Assembly (NCBI RefSeq): GCF_007279655.1 | Contig: NZ_QKWN01000002.1 | Location: forward strand, 434,001-498,000 | DNA from: Robertkochia solimangrovi | GTDB taxonomy: Bacteria > Bacteroidota > Bacteroidia > Flavobacteriales > Flavobacteriaceae | DNA length: 64,000 nt | Direction: 5' to 3' | Shown here: positions 5,645-30,927 of the stretch, piece after piece | Layout: every line of letters begins with the position of its first letter | Position numbering within the stretch: position 1 is the first letter of the stretch | Translations under genes and position numbers: made by a program | Notes under the pieces: generated by a model | What the model was told of the DNA's origin: nothing | Seen by the model: only the letters and a program-made list of their open reading frames with translations | Database searches by the model: none

Positions 5645-5947
5645 TTATCTCGAATTGAATTTATCTTTTCGCTTGCGTAACTGTATGGCCAGATCATCGG
5701 TGACCTCTGCGATCGAGGTTTCAAAATTCTTTGAATTTGCACTTGCAAAGAGCCTTGGTCCTGGTGCACTTAAACTTATTTTACAAATCTTACCGGAATC
5801 GGTGGAGGAGGTGTTCTCCTTCTTGAAGGCAACGTCAGCACGAACTATAAAATCATACTTTTCAACCAGTTTGTTCAGTTTCTTTGAGACCAGATCCTCC
5901 AGGCGGCTACTTGCAGAAACATCATCATATTCAAAATTATACTGCAT
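5645..5947 (-). CDS. hpf: Ribosome hibernation-promoting factor, short HPF/RaiA type
   Basis: This 100-residue protein has the beta-alpha-beta-beta-beta-alpha pattern of the HPF/RaiA domain. A helix LEDLVSKKLNKLVEKYDFIVRADVAFKKE is followed by a basic C-terminal helix TDDLAIQLRKRKDKF. Proteins of this family bind the decoding centre of the 30S subunit and silence ribosomes in stationary phase. The short length indicates the form without the C-terminal dimerisation domain. It is the first gene of a two-gene unit with the ArsC-like gene. The ATG at 5947 fits the expected domain start. Confidence 0.85.
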   Translation of the reverse strand: MQYNFEYDDVSASSRLEDLVSKKLNKLVEKYDFIVRADVAFKKENTSSTDSGKICKISLSAPGPRLFASANSKNFETSIAEVTDDLAIQLRKRKDKFNSR

Positions 5948-17998: not shown

Positions 17999-18691
17999 TC
18001 AGGACTGAATGCGTTCAAAGAAACCATCTTTATAACTGTCTCCGATCGGAATGAGATGCGTCAATTTCGTAGTGATACGATGCCTTTCAATCGAAATGAT
18101 ATGCTTTAAATTAATGATATAGGATTTATGGATTCGATGGAAATTTTCAGGCAAGCGGCCCTGAACATCCTTTAAATTATCCAGACTTAAAATCTTTTTT
18201 TGATCGGAAAGATAATATTCGATATAATCACTGGCTGCCTTGATATAAACAATATCCTGAGTACTGATCTTTAAGGTTATATAACCGGTTTTCACAAAGA
18301 TGAAATCAGCATTGTTCCCTGCGACAGACTGAGACCGACCAACAGGATTGATCCTGTCGATCGCTTTCACAAAACGATCATAGGATATAGGTTTTAAAAG
18401 GTAATCGATCACATTGAATTCATAGCCATCTAACGCATATTCCGAATAGGCTGTGGTTAAGATCACAGCACACTTATCGCCGATGATCTTCATAAACTGA
18501 ATACCTGTGAGTTCAGGCATCTGAATATCCAGAAGCACCAGATCGACCTTATTATTCTGAACCAATTCGAGAATTTCAAAAGCATCCGTTTGAGCAGCAA
18601 CCAATTCCAGTGCGGTAGTCTTCTCCACATAGTCCTTTAATATTTCTAAGGCTATGGGCTCGTCATCCAGTATGGCGGTTCTAATTTTCAT
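17999..18691 (-). CDS. LytTR-family response regulator
   Basis: The 230-residue protein has a receiver domain with an acidic pair in AILDDEP, phospho-acceptor Asp in VLLDIQMPEL, and Lys in LLKPISYDRF. A LytTR DNA-binding domain lies at about residues 130-225 (IVYIKAASDYIEYYL, FHRIHKSYIINLKHI). Its start overlaps the stop of the sensor gene by 11 nt, so the two are translationally coupled. LytTR regulators bind direct repeats upstream of their target genes. No target is proven here. Confidence 0.93.
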   Translation of the reverse strand: MKIRTAILDDEPIALEILKDYVEKTTALELVAAQTDAFEILELVQNNKVDLVLLDIQMPELTGIQFMKIIGDKCAVILTTAYSEYALDGYEFNVIDYLLKPISYDRFVKAIDRINPVGRSQSVAGNNADFIFVKTGYITLKISTQDIVYIKAASDYIEYYLSDQKKILSLDNLKDVQGRLPENFHRIHKSYIINLKHIISIERHRITTKLTHLIPIGDSYKDGFFERIQS

Positions 18692-19709
18692 TCCCTTGTA
18701 ATGTTAAGTCGATTTTATAAAACGCTTCCGATTGGTCTATCTTCAAGGTATGACGATTCGGATATAATAGCTCCAACCTCTTTTTAATATTGTCCAATCC
18801 GATTCCTTTTTGTTCATCCTTGTTGATCTTGCCATTACTATTCTCAGAAATAAAGTGGACATTATTATTTTTAACTTCCAGTAATATTTTAAACGGCATA
18901 GCTGTCCCGGTTAATTTCCCGTGCTTGAAAGCATTCTCAACAAAGGTGATCAGGAGATAGGGGGGTACCATGATCGGAGAAGTATCTCCATTTTTTTGAA
19001 TATCCAGCTGTAATGGGAGATTCAGGCGAATAGCCTGAAGCGCAATAAAATCTTCGAGCATTTCCCATTCCTTATCCAGGCTGACCATTTGATTCTTTTC
19101 ATAGAGCATATACCGCATTAAATTACTCAATTGAAGAATAGCTTCATGGGTATGATCTGATTTTTTGTAAGCCAGTCCGTAGATCGAATTCAATGCGTTG
19201 AAAAGAAAATGCGGACTCACCTGTAATTTCAGAAAATCGAGTTCAGCATTTTTGGTAGTGATCTCCAGTTCAGCTTTCTCCTTTTGCAACCTTATCTGAT
19301 AATCGAGTAGAAACAGTAAAAACCCAACCACGATATAGATGCTGGCATAGTAAAGATTATCACTGACATAATACTGGAAGGAAACACCCTCAAAATAATT
19401 TCCATGACCGAGAACTAACGGACTTATCACTTCTTCAATAACATACCGAAAGCTTATAAAGAACGTAAAGAGAAATAGGATCACCCCAACGATTTTATAC
19501 CATTTTCGCCGCGGCCAGACGTTATTCCAAAGCATATAGCTCAACCAAAAGATGGCGGAAATATAGAGGAGTTGCGTTAGTATGAAATAGTTAAATATTC
19601 GAGTCCAAACAATAGGTTTCCCCGAATTTAAGCTATTCAACAGATCGAATCCGAAAAGGAAAAGCAGAATACAGATACTGTAAAGGACGATTCTTTGATT
19701 TTTGGTCAT
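18681..19709 (-). CDS. LytS/YehU-type sensor histidine kinase
   Basis: This protein has four hydrophobic segments in its first 145 residues (TM helices) and then a coiled linker. The His_kinase box is LQVSPHFLFNALNSIYGL, followed by a short HATPase domain (VENAFKHGKL, GIGLDNIKKRLELLYP). The start is set at ATG 19709, giving 342 residues; a TTG 27 nt further upstream is the alternative. It is first in the operon and overlaps the LytTR regulator gene by 11 nt. The signal it senses is unknown. Confidence 0.9.
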   Translation of the reverse strand: MTKNQRIVLYSICILLFLFGFDLLNSLNSGKPIVWTRIFNYFILTQLLYISAIFWLSYMLWNNVWPRRKWYKIVGVILFLFTFFISFRYVIEEVISPLVLGHGNYFEGVSFQYYVSDNLYYASIYIVVGFLLFLLDYQIRLQKEKAELEITTKNAELDFLKLQVSPHFLFNALNSIYGLAYKKSDHTHEAILQLSNLMRYMLYEKNQMVSLDKEWEMLEDFIALQAIRLNLPLQLDIQKNGDTSPIMVPPYLLITFVENAFKHGKLTGTAMPFKILLEVKNNNVHFISENSNGKINKDEQKGIGLDNIKKRLELLYPNRHTLKIDQSEAFYKIDLTLQGNEN

Positions 19710-19893
19710 AACCCTAAAAATAAGGGGTGAGGTCAAATTAAACTAATAAAATCTGTAAACCCTGAAAATCGGTCGGTGAATCCGGAAATAGCGAGTTTTA
19801 AGGTTTACAGGGTAGTTTAATGGTTATACAGAACTTATTTGATAATGATAAGAGTTTGTGACAGCTTGCAGTATCAATTAAAATAATCGAACT

Positions 19894-29327: not shown

Positions 29328-29729
29328 CTAACAGGCAACCGGATTGTGCTGCAGCCTGCTTTGCTGCATTTCTATTGACCGGATCACCAGTGGGTATTCA
29401 GAAACGAACAGGTTGAACAGCTTGATAATGTTGCCCATGTTCTCCTTGTAGTAGCTTAATTGCTCCATTTGAAGCACCAGCTCCAGGAGGCCAAAGGCAC
29501 GCATTAACTCGAGTCCGACCTTAACCTTGTGGGATGTCATATAAATACCGGTAAAGTCATAAGAGGAAATGAAAAATGCCGTTTGTTCGACATATTCAGC
29601 GATACTCTCTTTGAACAATGTGATGATCTCGTTCAGGTATTCGATTTCACCATAGCAATCTTCCAGAACGATACTCATATCCGGAAGCTTTGTTTTAAAG
29701 GTAGGTTCAGGTAAGATTTGCAGGCTCAT
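29328..29729 (-). CDS. Hpt-like phosphotransfer protein with histidine kept
   Basis: This 133-residue all-helical protein has the centre pattern of a histidine phosphotransfer helix. His67-Lys-Val-Lys70 and GLELMRAFGLLELVLQMEQL parallel the H-x-L-K-G...LG..L...LE pattern of Hpt domains. It is a paralogue of the protein at 30203: DC.G..E....I..F.ES..EY is shared in the first helices. It is last in a three-gene unit with a pseudo-receiver in the middle, 109 nt after it, and ends at a strong terminator. The function is not established, and an Hpt role is an inference from pattern. Another reading is a helical adaptor that has kept the fold only. Confidence 0.55.
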   Translation of the reverse strand: MSLQILPEPTFKTKLPDMSIVLEDCYGEIEYLNEIITLFKESIAEYVEQTAFFISSYDFTGIYMTSHKVKVGLELMRAFGLLELVLQMEQLSYYKENMGNIIKLFNLFVSEYPLVIRSIEMQQSRLQHNPVAC

Positions 29730-29838
29730 TTAATTTATTATTTAGGTTAAGTAGTGAGTGGATTTGGGGATTCACTCACTTTATTTCTATCCTAAAATTA
29801 GGTCTATTTTTTAGTTCGAAAAATTAATTGTTGTGTAT

Positions 29839-30210
29839 TCACGAATTCTGTATGTGAAATTCAAATGCTACAGTTTCAATCATTTCCAAACAAACATTCG
29901 GTTCAACAGGCTTCCAAAGAACACCTGAAACCTTCTCTTCTGAAAGGATAAAATTCACAGGTTGTTCCCGGCTGTCTCTGATAAGAATCACAGGGATATT
30001 CCCTGCCCTTTCAGCAAACCGATCTGGGGTCATGTAGGGTAAGCGGTTACTCAGTAAAATAAGATCGGGGCTGATCTCCTTTAAATATTCCATAGCTTGT
30101 TTTCCATTTCCGGCGGTGACCACTTTGTACCCGGAGTTTTTAAGTCTAAAAGCCAACAGGGTAGCTTGCATTCGGTCTTCATCCGCCAGTAAGATAATTT
30201 TTTTAGCCAT
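29839..30210 (-). CDS. Stand-alone receiver domain without phospho-acceptor Asp
   Basis: The 123-residue protein is a whole CheY-type receiver. The acid pair is Asp10-Glu11 (LLADEDRM) and the helix-strand order is complete (GYKVVTAGNGKQAMEYLKEISPDLILL). Lysine is kept in LWKPVEP. The phospho-acceptor position after LILL is Ser54 instead of Asp (SNRLPYM), and the Thr/Ser switch is RDS. It should therefore not be phosphorylated in the normal way, so it is a pseudo-receiver. It overlaps the upstream Hpt-like gene by 8 nt, so the two are translationally coupled. It is likely to act by binding the Hpt-like partners. Confidence 0.75.
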   Translation of the reverse strand: MAKKIILLADEDRMQATLLAFRLKNSGYKVVTAGNGKQAMEYLKEISPDLILLSNRLPYMTPDRFAERAGNIPVILIRDSREQPVNFILSEEKVSGVLWKPVEPNVCLEMIETVAFEFHIQNS

Positions 30211-30571
30211 GTAGTTTTTCCACTTGTTTTTTTAATTCATCCCGCACATGCAGGTATTCTCCTTTAAAATCTGATATCAATGTTTCAACATAGATCAATG
30301 CGTCGAGTTGCTGACATTCGTAATCGATCATATCCAGATAATCGAGTAAGCTGTTCGCTTCGATCATCAACAGACCAGTCTTCAGTTTACCACCGGCTCT
30401 TACAATCGAAAACCGGTCTTTTGCCTTGATATACATCGCTACTGAAGCAAGGTACTCTTCAACACTCTCGTTGAATATTTTTATCAGCTTTTCAATATGT
30501 TCCAGATCTCCAAGACAATCATCGCGGAGTCTGGAAATATTAGCGCTTAAAACCTTCGATCTCGTACTCAC
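30203..30571 (-). CDS. Hpt-like protein without the histidine
   Basis: The 122-residue all-helical paralogue of the 29328 protein. The helix that carries His67 there reads Gly61-Lys-Leu-Lys64 here (AGGKLKTGLLMIEANSLLDYLDM), so the phospho-acceptor is lost while the flanking Lys, Gly and leucines are kept. It is first in the operon and its stop overlaps the receiver start by 8 nt. A binding rather than transfer role is likely. The paralogy is visible by eye, but the Hpt family call needs a profile search. Confidence 0.55.
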   Translation of the reverse strand: MSTRSKVLSANISRLRDDCLGDLEHIEKLIKIFNESVEEYLASVAMYIKAKDRFSIVRAGGKLKTGLLMIEANSLLDYLDMIDYECQQLDALIYVETLISDFKGEYLHVRDELKKQVEKLHG

Positions 30572-30657: not shown

Positions 30658-30735
30658 TTACATCATAAAAAAACTTCCGGATTTTAGCCCGGAAGCTTTC
30701 TCTAAGTAGGATTCAGGTAAGATTTGTAGGTTCAT
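30658..30735 (-). pseudogene. Decayed copy of the Hpt-like gene start (25-codon remnant)
   Basis: From ATG 30735 the frame reads MNLQILPES, matching MSLQILPEP of the gene at 29328-29729. It then runs through a hairpin and stops after 25 codons at 30658. The DNA around the start (about 30709-30738) matches 29704-29733 at nearly all positions. The body of the gene is gone. It could instead be a short leader peptide containing an attenuator-like terminator upstream of the operon. Confidence 0.5.
30667..30695 (-). terminator. Hairpin with T-run upstream of the Hpt-like operon
   Basis: CTTCCGG (30674-30680) pairs with CCGGAAG (30689-30695), and on the minus strand seven T follow. It lies within the 25-codon remnant and about 100 nt upstream of the first Hpt-like ATG, so it may be an attenuator or an old terminator. 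Confidence 0.75.
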
Positions 30736-30927
30736 TTAGTTGGGGTTAAAAAACTCCACATCGCTGTGTAGTTTCATTTTGTTAGACTAAAAATATAGGG
30801 TTAAAACGGGATGAAAAATATTTTGTTGTGTACACCTCATTTTTGTATGTCAAAACAGTTCGGATTGAAGAATAGAAGCGAACCAGTTTTCAAAAAACCT
30901 ACATTAGTAAAATCGTATTAATAAAAT
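30736..30927. other. Spacer upstream of the decayed cassette head
   Basis: AT-rich. TTGTTGTGTA at 30823-30832 also occurs at 29829-29838, at a similar distance from the intact copy's start (106 against 118 nt). That suggests the duplication extends this far. No ORF. Confidence 0.4.

Follow-up and report, generated by a model that had tools for sequence, protein, structure and literature searches.

In a 64,000-nucleotide stretch of Robertkochia solimangrovi DNA (contig NZ_QKWN01000002.1, hereafter the window), three short genes on the reverse strand encode, in order, an Hpt-fold protein, a receiver-like protein and a second Hpt-fold protein, referred to here as HptA, the pseudo-receiver and HptB (Table 1). 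The genes of HptA and the pseudo-receiver overlap by 8 nt, at 30203-30210, and the coordinates, strand and overlap reported in a first-pass annotation of this DNA were all correct. To these we add two promoter-like sites and an RNA element at the same locus, which that annotation did not contain. Elsewhere in the window, at 17999-19736, a response regulator gene (MKIRTAILDDEPIALEIL..., which looks to be of the LytTR type) adjoins a gene for a membrane protein that could be its partner kinase; it is unlinked to the cassette.

Table 1. Genes and other features of the cassette locus (positions in the window)
Feature	Coordinates	Strand	Description
P1	30824..30851	-	direct-repeat site GACATACAAAAA-N9-CACAACA; TAnnTTTR-type -7 box ~26 nt downstream
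RNA element, copy 1	30667..30763	-	C-rich-loop hairpin, single-stranded box CAAATCUUACCUGAAUCCUAC (30706-30726), intrinsic terminator (~30667-30700)
HptA	30203..30571	-	Hpt-fold protein, 122 aa, GTG start, phospho-His replaced by Gly61
Pseudo-receiver	29839..30210	-	123 aa, PF00072 match, Asp replaced by Ser54
P2	29829..29856	-	CACATACAGAAT-N9-CACAACA; overlaps receiver gene 3' end
RNA element, weaker copy 2	29653..29758	-	forms HptB 5' leader and first codons (MSLQILPE)
HptB	29328..29729	-	Hpt-fold protein, 133 aa, His67 retained

The proposal that the outer proteins are paralogues held up, as HptB used as a query against its own genome matched HptA with an E-value of 1.1e-9 and 26% identity. 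Searched against Pfam, the middle protein matched the receiver family PF00072 (E=1.7e-11), and Ser54 aligned to the phospho-Asp, in agreement with the earlier reading; the conserved Thr/Ser has become Arg, and the acidic pair (Glu/Asp) and the Lys are retained. The Pfam Hpt family PF01627 was matched directly by neither HptA nor HptB of the window; among the 13 aligned family members it was matched by nine, with a best E-value of 3.2e-7. The Hpt fold suggested for both outer proteins was recovered by structure prediction, the AF2 models of HptA (pLDDT 89.6) and HptB (85.7) both being elongated helical bundles of the Hpt type whose best PDB matches in Foldseek were Hpt proteins (probability 1.00, E about 0.01, TM up to about 0.79), the solved structures including Shewanella 3myf, P. 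aeruginosa HptB 7c1i, maize ZmHP2 and ArcB. Gly61 of HptA and His67 of HptB, which had been singled out in an Hpt-like helix, both align to the phospho-His column of related Hpts. Judged from sequence, then, HptA of the window is a pseudo-Hpt with no phosphorylatable His, and the middle protein is a predicted pseudo-receiver that lacks both the phospho-Asp and the conserved Thr/Ser.

The gene order is found elsewhere in the Flavobacteriaceae. Nine genomes, those of all five Robertkochia and of four Galbibacter (among the latter G282, which shares its genus code with G. marinus), have the HptA-receiver pair in the same location, complete with the overlap of 8 nt, and this recurrence across two genera places the pair beyond chance. 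A CarboxypepD_reg-like gene stands 3' of the pair across the cassette loci, and a dicarboxylate symporter gene stands 5' of it wherever the upstream side was read, with one additional gene between them in Galbibacter; no viral contigs were found in this survey. The three genes had at first been taken as one set, and this view stands for the pair but not for HptB, which is present in only two of the nine genomes, those of the window species and Robertkochia sp. 3YJGBD-33. The conserved unit is therefore two genes, HptA and the receiver. HptB is no recent duplicate of HptA; the tree puts it outside the well-supported HptA group.

The origin of the pair can be read from other genera. Of 397 Flavobacteriaceae genomes, about 70 encode a different kind of protein that is matched by a profile of HptA. 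Where these matches were read, the matching part was the Hpt at the C-terminus of a hybrid histidine kinase with HisKA, HATPase, receiver and Hpt domains, or the protein was a version with the Hpt only; a CheY-like stand-alone receiver was mostly encoded next after the kinase or Hpt gene. The operons that were read through continue with a membrane HEAT-repeat protein, a family-2 glycosyltransferase, a sulfatase-domain membrane protein and a TPR-YaiO outer-membrane protein. The glycosyltransferase is PgaC/IcaA-like at 2.6e-43, a score below the equivalog cut-off, and the gene content suggests that the operon is an exopolysaccharide (EPS) system. In the trees the cassette proteins stand apart from the operon proteins (support 94/93 for the Hpt and 86/92 for the receiver), a grouping to be read with caution as several cassette branches are very long. 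These comparisons show that the cassette descends from a phosphorelay of a hybrid kinase-receiver-Hpt and a receiver, which in other Flavobacteriaceae stands at the head of a PgaC-like glycosyltransferase/YaiO operon. The homologous Hpt and receiver genes come in the same order in both, behind a promoter site of equal spacing, whereas the cassette has neither the kinase, nor the EPS genes, nor the receiver Asp, and has its promoter site doubled and an RNA element added. The lack of a kinase gene, which had been pointed out for the window, extends to the related cassette loci: a linked hybrid kinase (HisKA/HATPase) is absent beside the cassette in all of them and present in the homologous operons, and this explains the missing kinase, as HptA corresponds, in other genera, to the Hpt at the C-terminus of a hybrid kinase, the kinase portion of which the cassette lacks. 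The linked HEAT, family-2 glycosyltransferase and YaiO genes are likewise absent at the cassette locus. At a distance, on contig 16 of the same genome (~199-202 kb, locus L136), there is a separate EPS module with a 242-aa receiver-like/Hpt-like protein, an intact 121-aa receiver (ITDLMLPF), a HEAT-type protein and a family-2 glycosyltransferase, and it is here that the cassette might act.

The phosphorylatable residues have been lost to different extents in the two proteins. The Asp is present in none of the nine cassette receivers, being Gly in seven, Ser in the window and Asn in 3YJGBD-33, and in several of these receivers T and D+4 have changed as well; in the EPS operons, all eight scored positions (D,D,D,P,S,A,K,P) are retained in 27 of 27 receivers and the His in 28 of 28 Hpts. 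The His of HptA is kept in seven of the nine genomes and lost in the window species (Gly) and in 3YJGBD-33 (Asn), which are the same two species that possess HptB. In 3YJGBD-33 HptB has Arg at the His position, so that every phosphorylatable residue of this cassette is gone, with the reading frames intact. The phosphorelay-like nature assigned to the locus at first was right as to its origin, a real phosphorelay, while the His/Gly difference between the two Hpts on which it drew turned out to be species-specific.

It could be argued from the seven HptA proteins with a His that, in most species, HptA has a phosphotransfer role with other partners. In its full form the argument would be that HptA and HptB do carry out phosphotransfer, serving a kinase that is not linked to them, and that the pseudo-receiver is switched by a ligand or partner and not by phosphorylation of an Asp. 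Besides these seven proteins and His67 of the window HptB, the basic residues after the His position of HptA would favour this, as they are retained even where the His is lost, and the L136 module with its intact receiver could supply a partner; the 3YJGBD-33 cassette, devoid of phosphorylatable residues in intact frames, speaks against it, and we regard this explanation as unlikely, if worth keeping in sight.

Could the cassette then be a decaying, functionless remnant of the EPS phosphorelay? The lost catalytic residues and the absent kinase would be expected of such a remnant, and the fast evolution of the pseudo-receiver, with branch lengths of up to 10 in the tree compared to ~0.2 for the EPS receivers, also fits a weakly constrained one. 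The codon positions say otherwise. As standard dS estimates are mostly saturated, we relied on differences per codon position, which between R. marina CC-AMO-30D and strain 3YJGBD-35 amount to 17/3/44% at positions 1/2/3 in HptA and 19/6/53% in the receiver, the figures for the symporter in the same comparison being 11/2/54%; for HptA, dN is 0.07 and dS 0.81. Under a neutral simulation, 3-5 stop codons were expected per cassette gene. Because the changes fall mostly at third positions, HptA and the pseudo-receiver are clearly held by purifying selection. With this strong bias, the receiver included, with all nine copies intact in the two genera at a synonymous divergence that is high or saturated, and with the overlap and the promoter sites conserved, we consider a functionless remnant very improbable.

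In the window and in Galbibacter the locus has two copies of the promoter-like site CACATACAAAAA-N9-CACAACA, or of a close form of it; elsewhere in the genome of the window there is no such site at up to two mismatches. The second copy (P2) is degenerate in R. marina, strain 3YJGBD-35 and R. sediminum, and the first (P1) in 3YJGBD-33. Robertkochia and Galbibacter retain the Hpt and the pseudo-receiver, the overlap of 8 nt between their genes and, usually in two copies, a promoter site of equal spacing. The EPS operons have an element of the form ACCTACAAATAAAGCA-N-TTTGACAACA, followed by TAGGTAACATTTAATTG, upstream in 25 of 28 Flavobacteriaceae loci, with the spacing of the cassette sites, and it was found 0 times in the reversed-pattern control and in shuffles. 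In full it is a conserved 27-bp ACCTACAAATAAAGCANTTTGACAACA with the downstream TAGGTAACATTTAATTG (e.g. L067:3020, L171-L184, L186, L095 and L110); the core and the spacing are common to the cassette and EPS sites, the whole element is not. A repeat spacing of ~20 bp would suit a dimeric response regulator. A similar site, AACACACAAAAAATGGCGTTTCACAACA, precedes a TPR histidine kinase gene that adjoins a bshB1-like gene in five other genera (L043, L049, L051, L124, L125); it is missing in Robertkochia and Galbibacter, and this kinase was rejected as a linked regulator.

The RNA element starts with a hairpin, its loop rich in C (CCCCAA or similar) and its stems differing between species. A single-stranded box (CARRUCUUACCUGAAYCCURC) follows, which is near-invariant and better conserved than any other part of the locus, and then an intrinsic terminator, which has different stems in Robertkochia and Galbibacter. 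Four Robertkochia have the element below P1, between that site and HptA, and four Galbibacter have it below P2, where it stands by itself after the receiver gene and before the following one; the copies outside the window include those at L080:5876-5970 and L076:4857-4955. In R. sediminum no such box can be recognised upstream of HptA. A second copy occurs at the start of HptB in the window and in 3YJGBD-33. In the window, hairpin 1 of this copy (AGUGAGUG/CACUCACU, with CCCCAAA in the loop) lies directly upstream of it, and none of 500 shuffles was equally stable. Compared to shuffled flanks, the hairpin reached significance at p<0.05 in nine of 11 tested copies with loop and box, the exceptions being P2 of 3YJGBD-33 (0.11) and P1 of strain 3YJGBD-35 (0.46); the eleven are related, and so these are not nine independent tests. 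A covariance model, in which only the terminator is paired, gave 87.4 bits for copy 1, itself among the eight copies from which the model was built, and 39.9 bits for copy 2; since background matches reach ~35 bits, only matches of 70-90 bits were trusted. High scores were confined to this locus among the sequences searched, as was the zero-mismatch box among the 397 family genomes, and Rfam held nothing near the gathering score. A genome-wide repeated element was rejected, no convincing additional copies having appeared in the searches. One 19-nt match to the box (95%) at 5782-5800 of the window, antisense to a ribosome hibernation factor-like gene, has E=0.27 and is probably due to chance.

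A 25-codon open reading frame upstream of HptA (MNLQILPESYL...) was considered as a leader peptide and rejected: its frame is shifted in 3YJGBD-33 and it has no ATG in Galbibacter. As the frame through the box is not conserved, and the promoter-like site, the terminator and the box are, we prefer an RNA, which would be a candidate small RNA or terminated leader. The locus could even be mainly one for a small RNA, the promoter sites driving a regulatory RNA to which the proteins are accessory or on whose promoter they feed back. The conservation of the box over stems that vary, the solitary position of the element in Galbibacter and its restriction to this locus outside any Rfam family would all agree with such an RNA. 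Against it stand R. sediminum, with no box upstream of HptA, the hairpin that is not significant in every copy, and a target search with the 12-nt complement, in which there was neither a shared 5'-region target nor a conserved one; we find it quite unlikely that this is the main purpose of the locus. The same complement has a match in the coding region of EF-G common to two Robertkochia, which may be mere coding conservation. In a limited search of the literature and Rfam, we met no prior description of the RNA element or of the EPS-operon promoter element.

As the receiver has no Asp in every species, a binding role is the natural inference. The interpretation we lean towards, with moderate confidence, is that the cassette is a reduced and mostly phosphate-dead descendant of a multistep phosphorelay, in which HptA and the pseudo-receiver form a non-catalytic binding pair. 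The pseudo-receiver would occupy the docking face of the Hpt, where the basic residues beside the His position have been kept, and the pair would titrate, block or gate phosphorelay proteins that are encoded elsewhere and still active in the cell. HptB of the window, with its His, may still carry phosphate, gated by the pseudo-receiver, and the inherited promoter sites would set the dosage of the pair and of the small RNA from the same locus. A more far-reaching version, which we offer tentatively as a possibility, is that a phosphate-free Hpt/pseudo-receiver pair has replaced the phosphorelay as a dosage-controlled regulator, and that the inherited promoter switch also drives a new small RNA, making this a mixed protein-RNA locus.

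Pseudo two-component proteins are already known. The His is absent from 0.9% of Hpt domains and the Asp from 2.0% of receivers, pseudo-receivers have been proposed to work by binding other parts of two-component systems, and a 2025 review calls the way in which bacterial pseudo-receivers are switched a mystery (PMC12632262). The cassette receivers resemble pseudo-receiver response regulators in having a receiver fold without the phospho-Asp and, in several copies, changes at T and D+4, but they are single-domain proteins with no output domain, and the overlapping Hpt gene loses its His in two species. On the Hpt side, Arabidopsis AHP6 is a pseudo-HPt in which Asn has taken the place of the His, and it may be a competitor of functional Hpts for the kinases (PMC7402358). 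A parallel to HptA may be drawn by residue identity, the HptA of 3YJGBD-33 also having Asn for His, whereas HptA is bacterial and gene-paired with a pseudo-receiver.

What is new here is that a pseudo-Hpt and a pseudo-receiver are paired as genes, that their evolution can be followed through a clear series, and that a candidate RNA accompanies them. A His-less Hpt and an Asp-less receiver are combined in one overlapping gene pair that has intact relatives in many genera, and the order of events is visible, the Asp being lost in nine of nine genomes and the His in two. With one species in which all the phosphorylatable residues of the cassette are gone, with the intact relatives and with this order of loss, the locus is a natural setting in which to ask whether signalling can work by binding alone.
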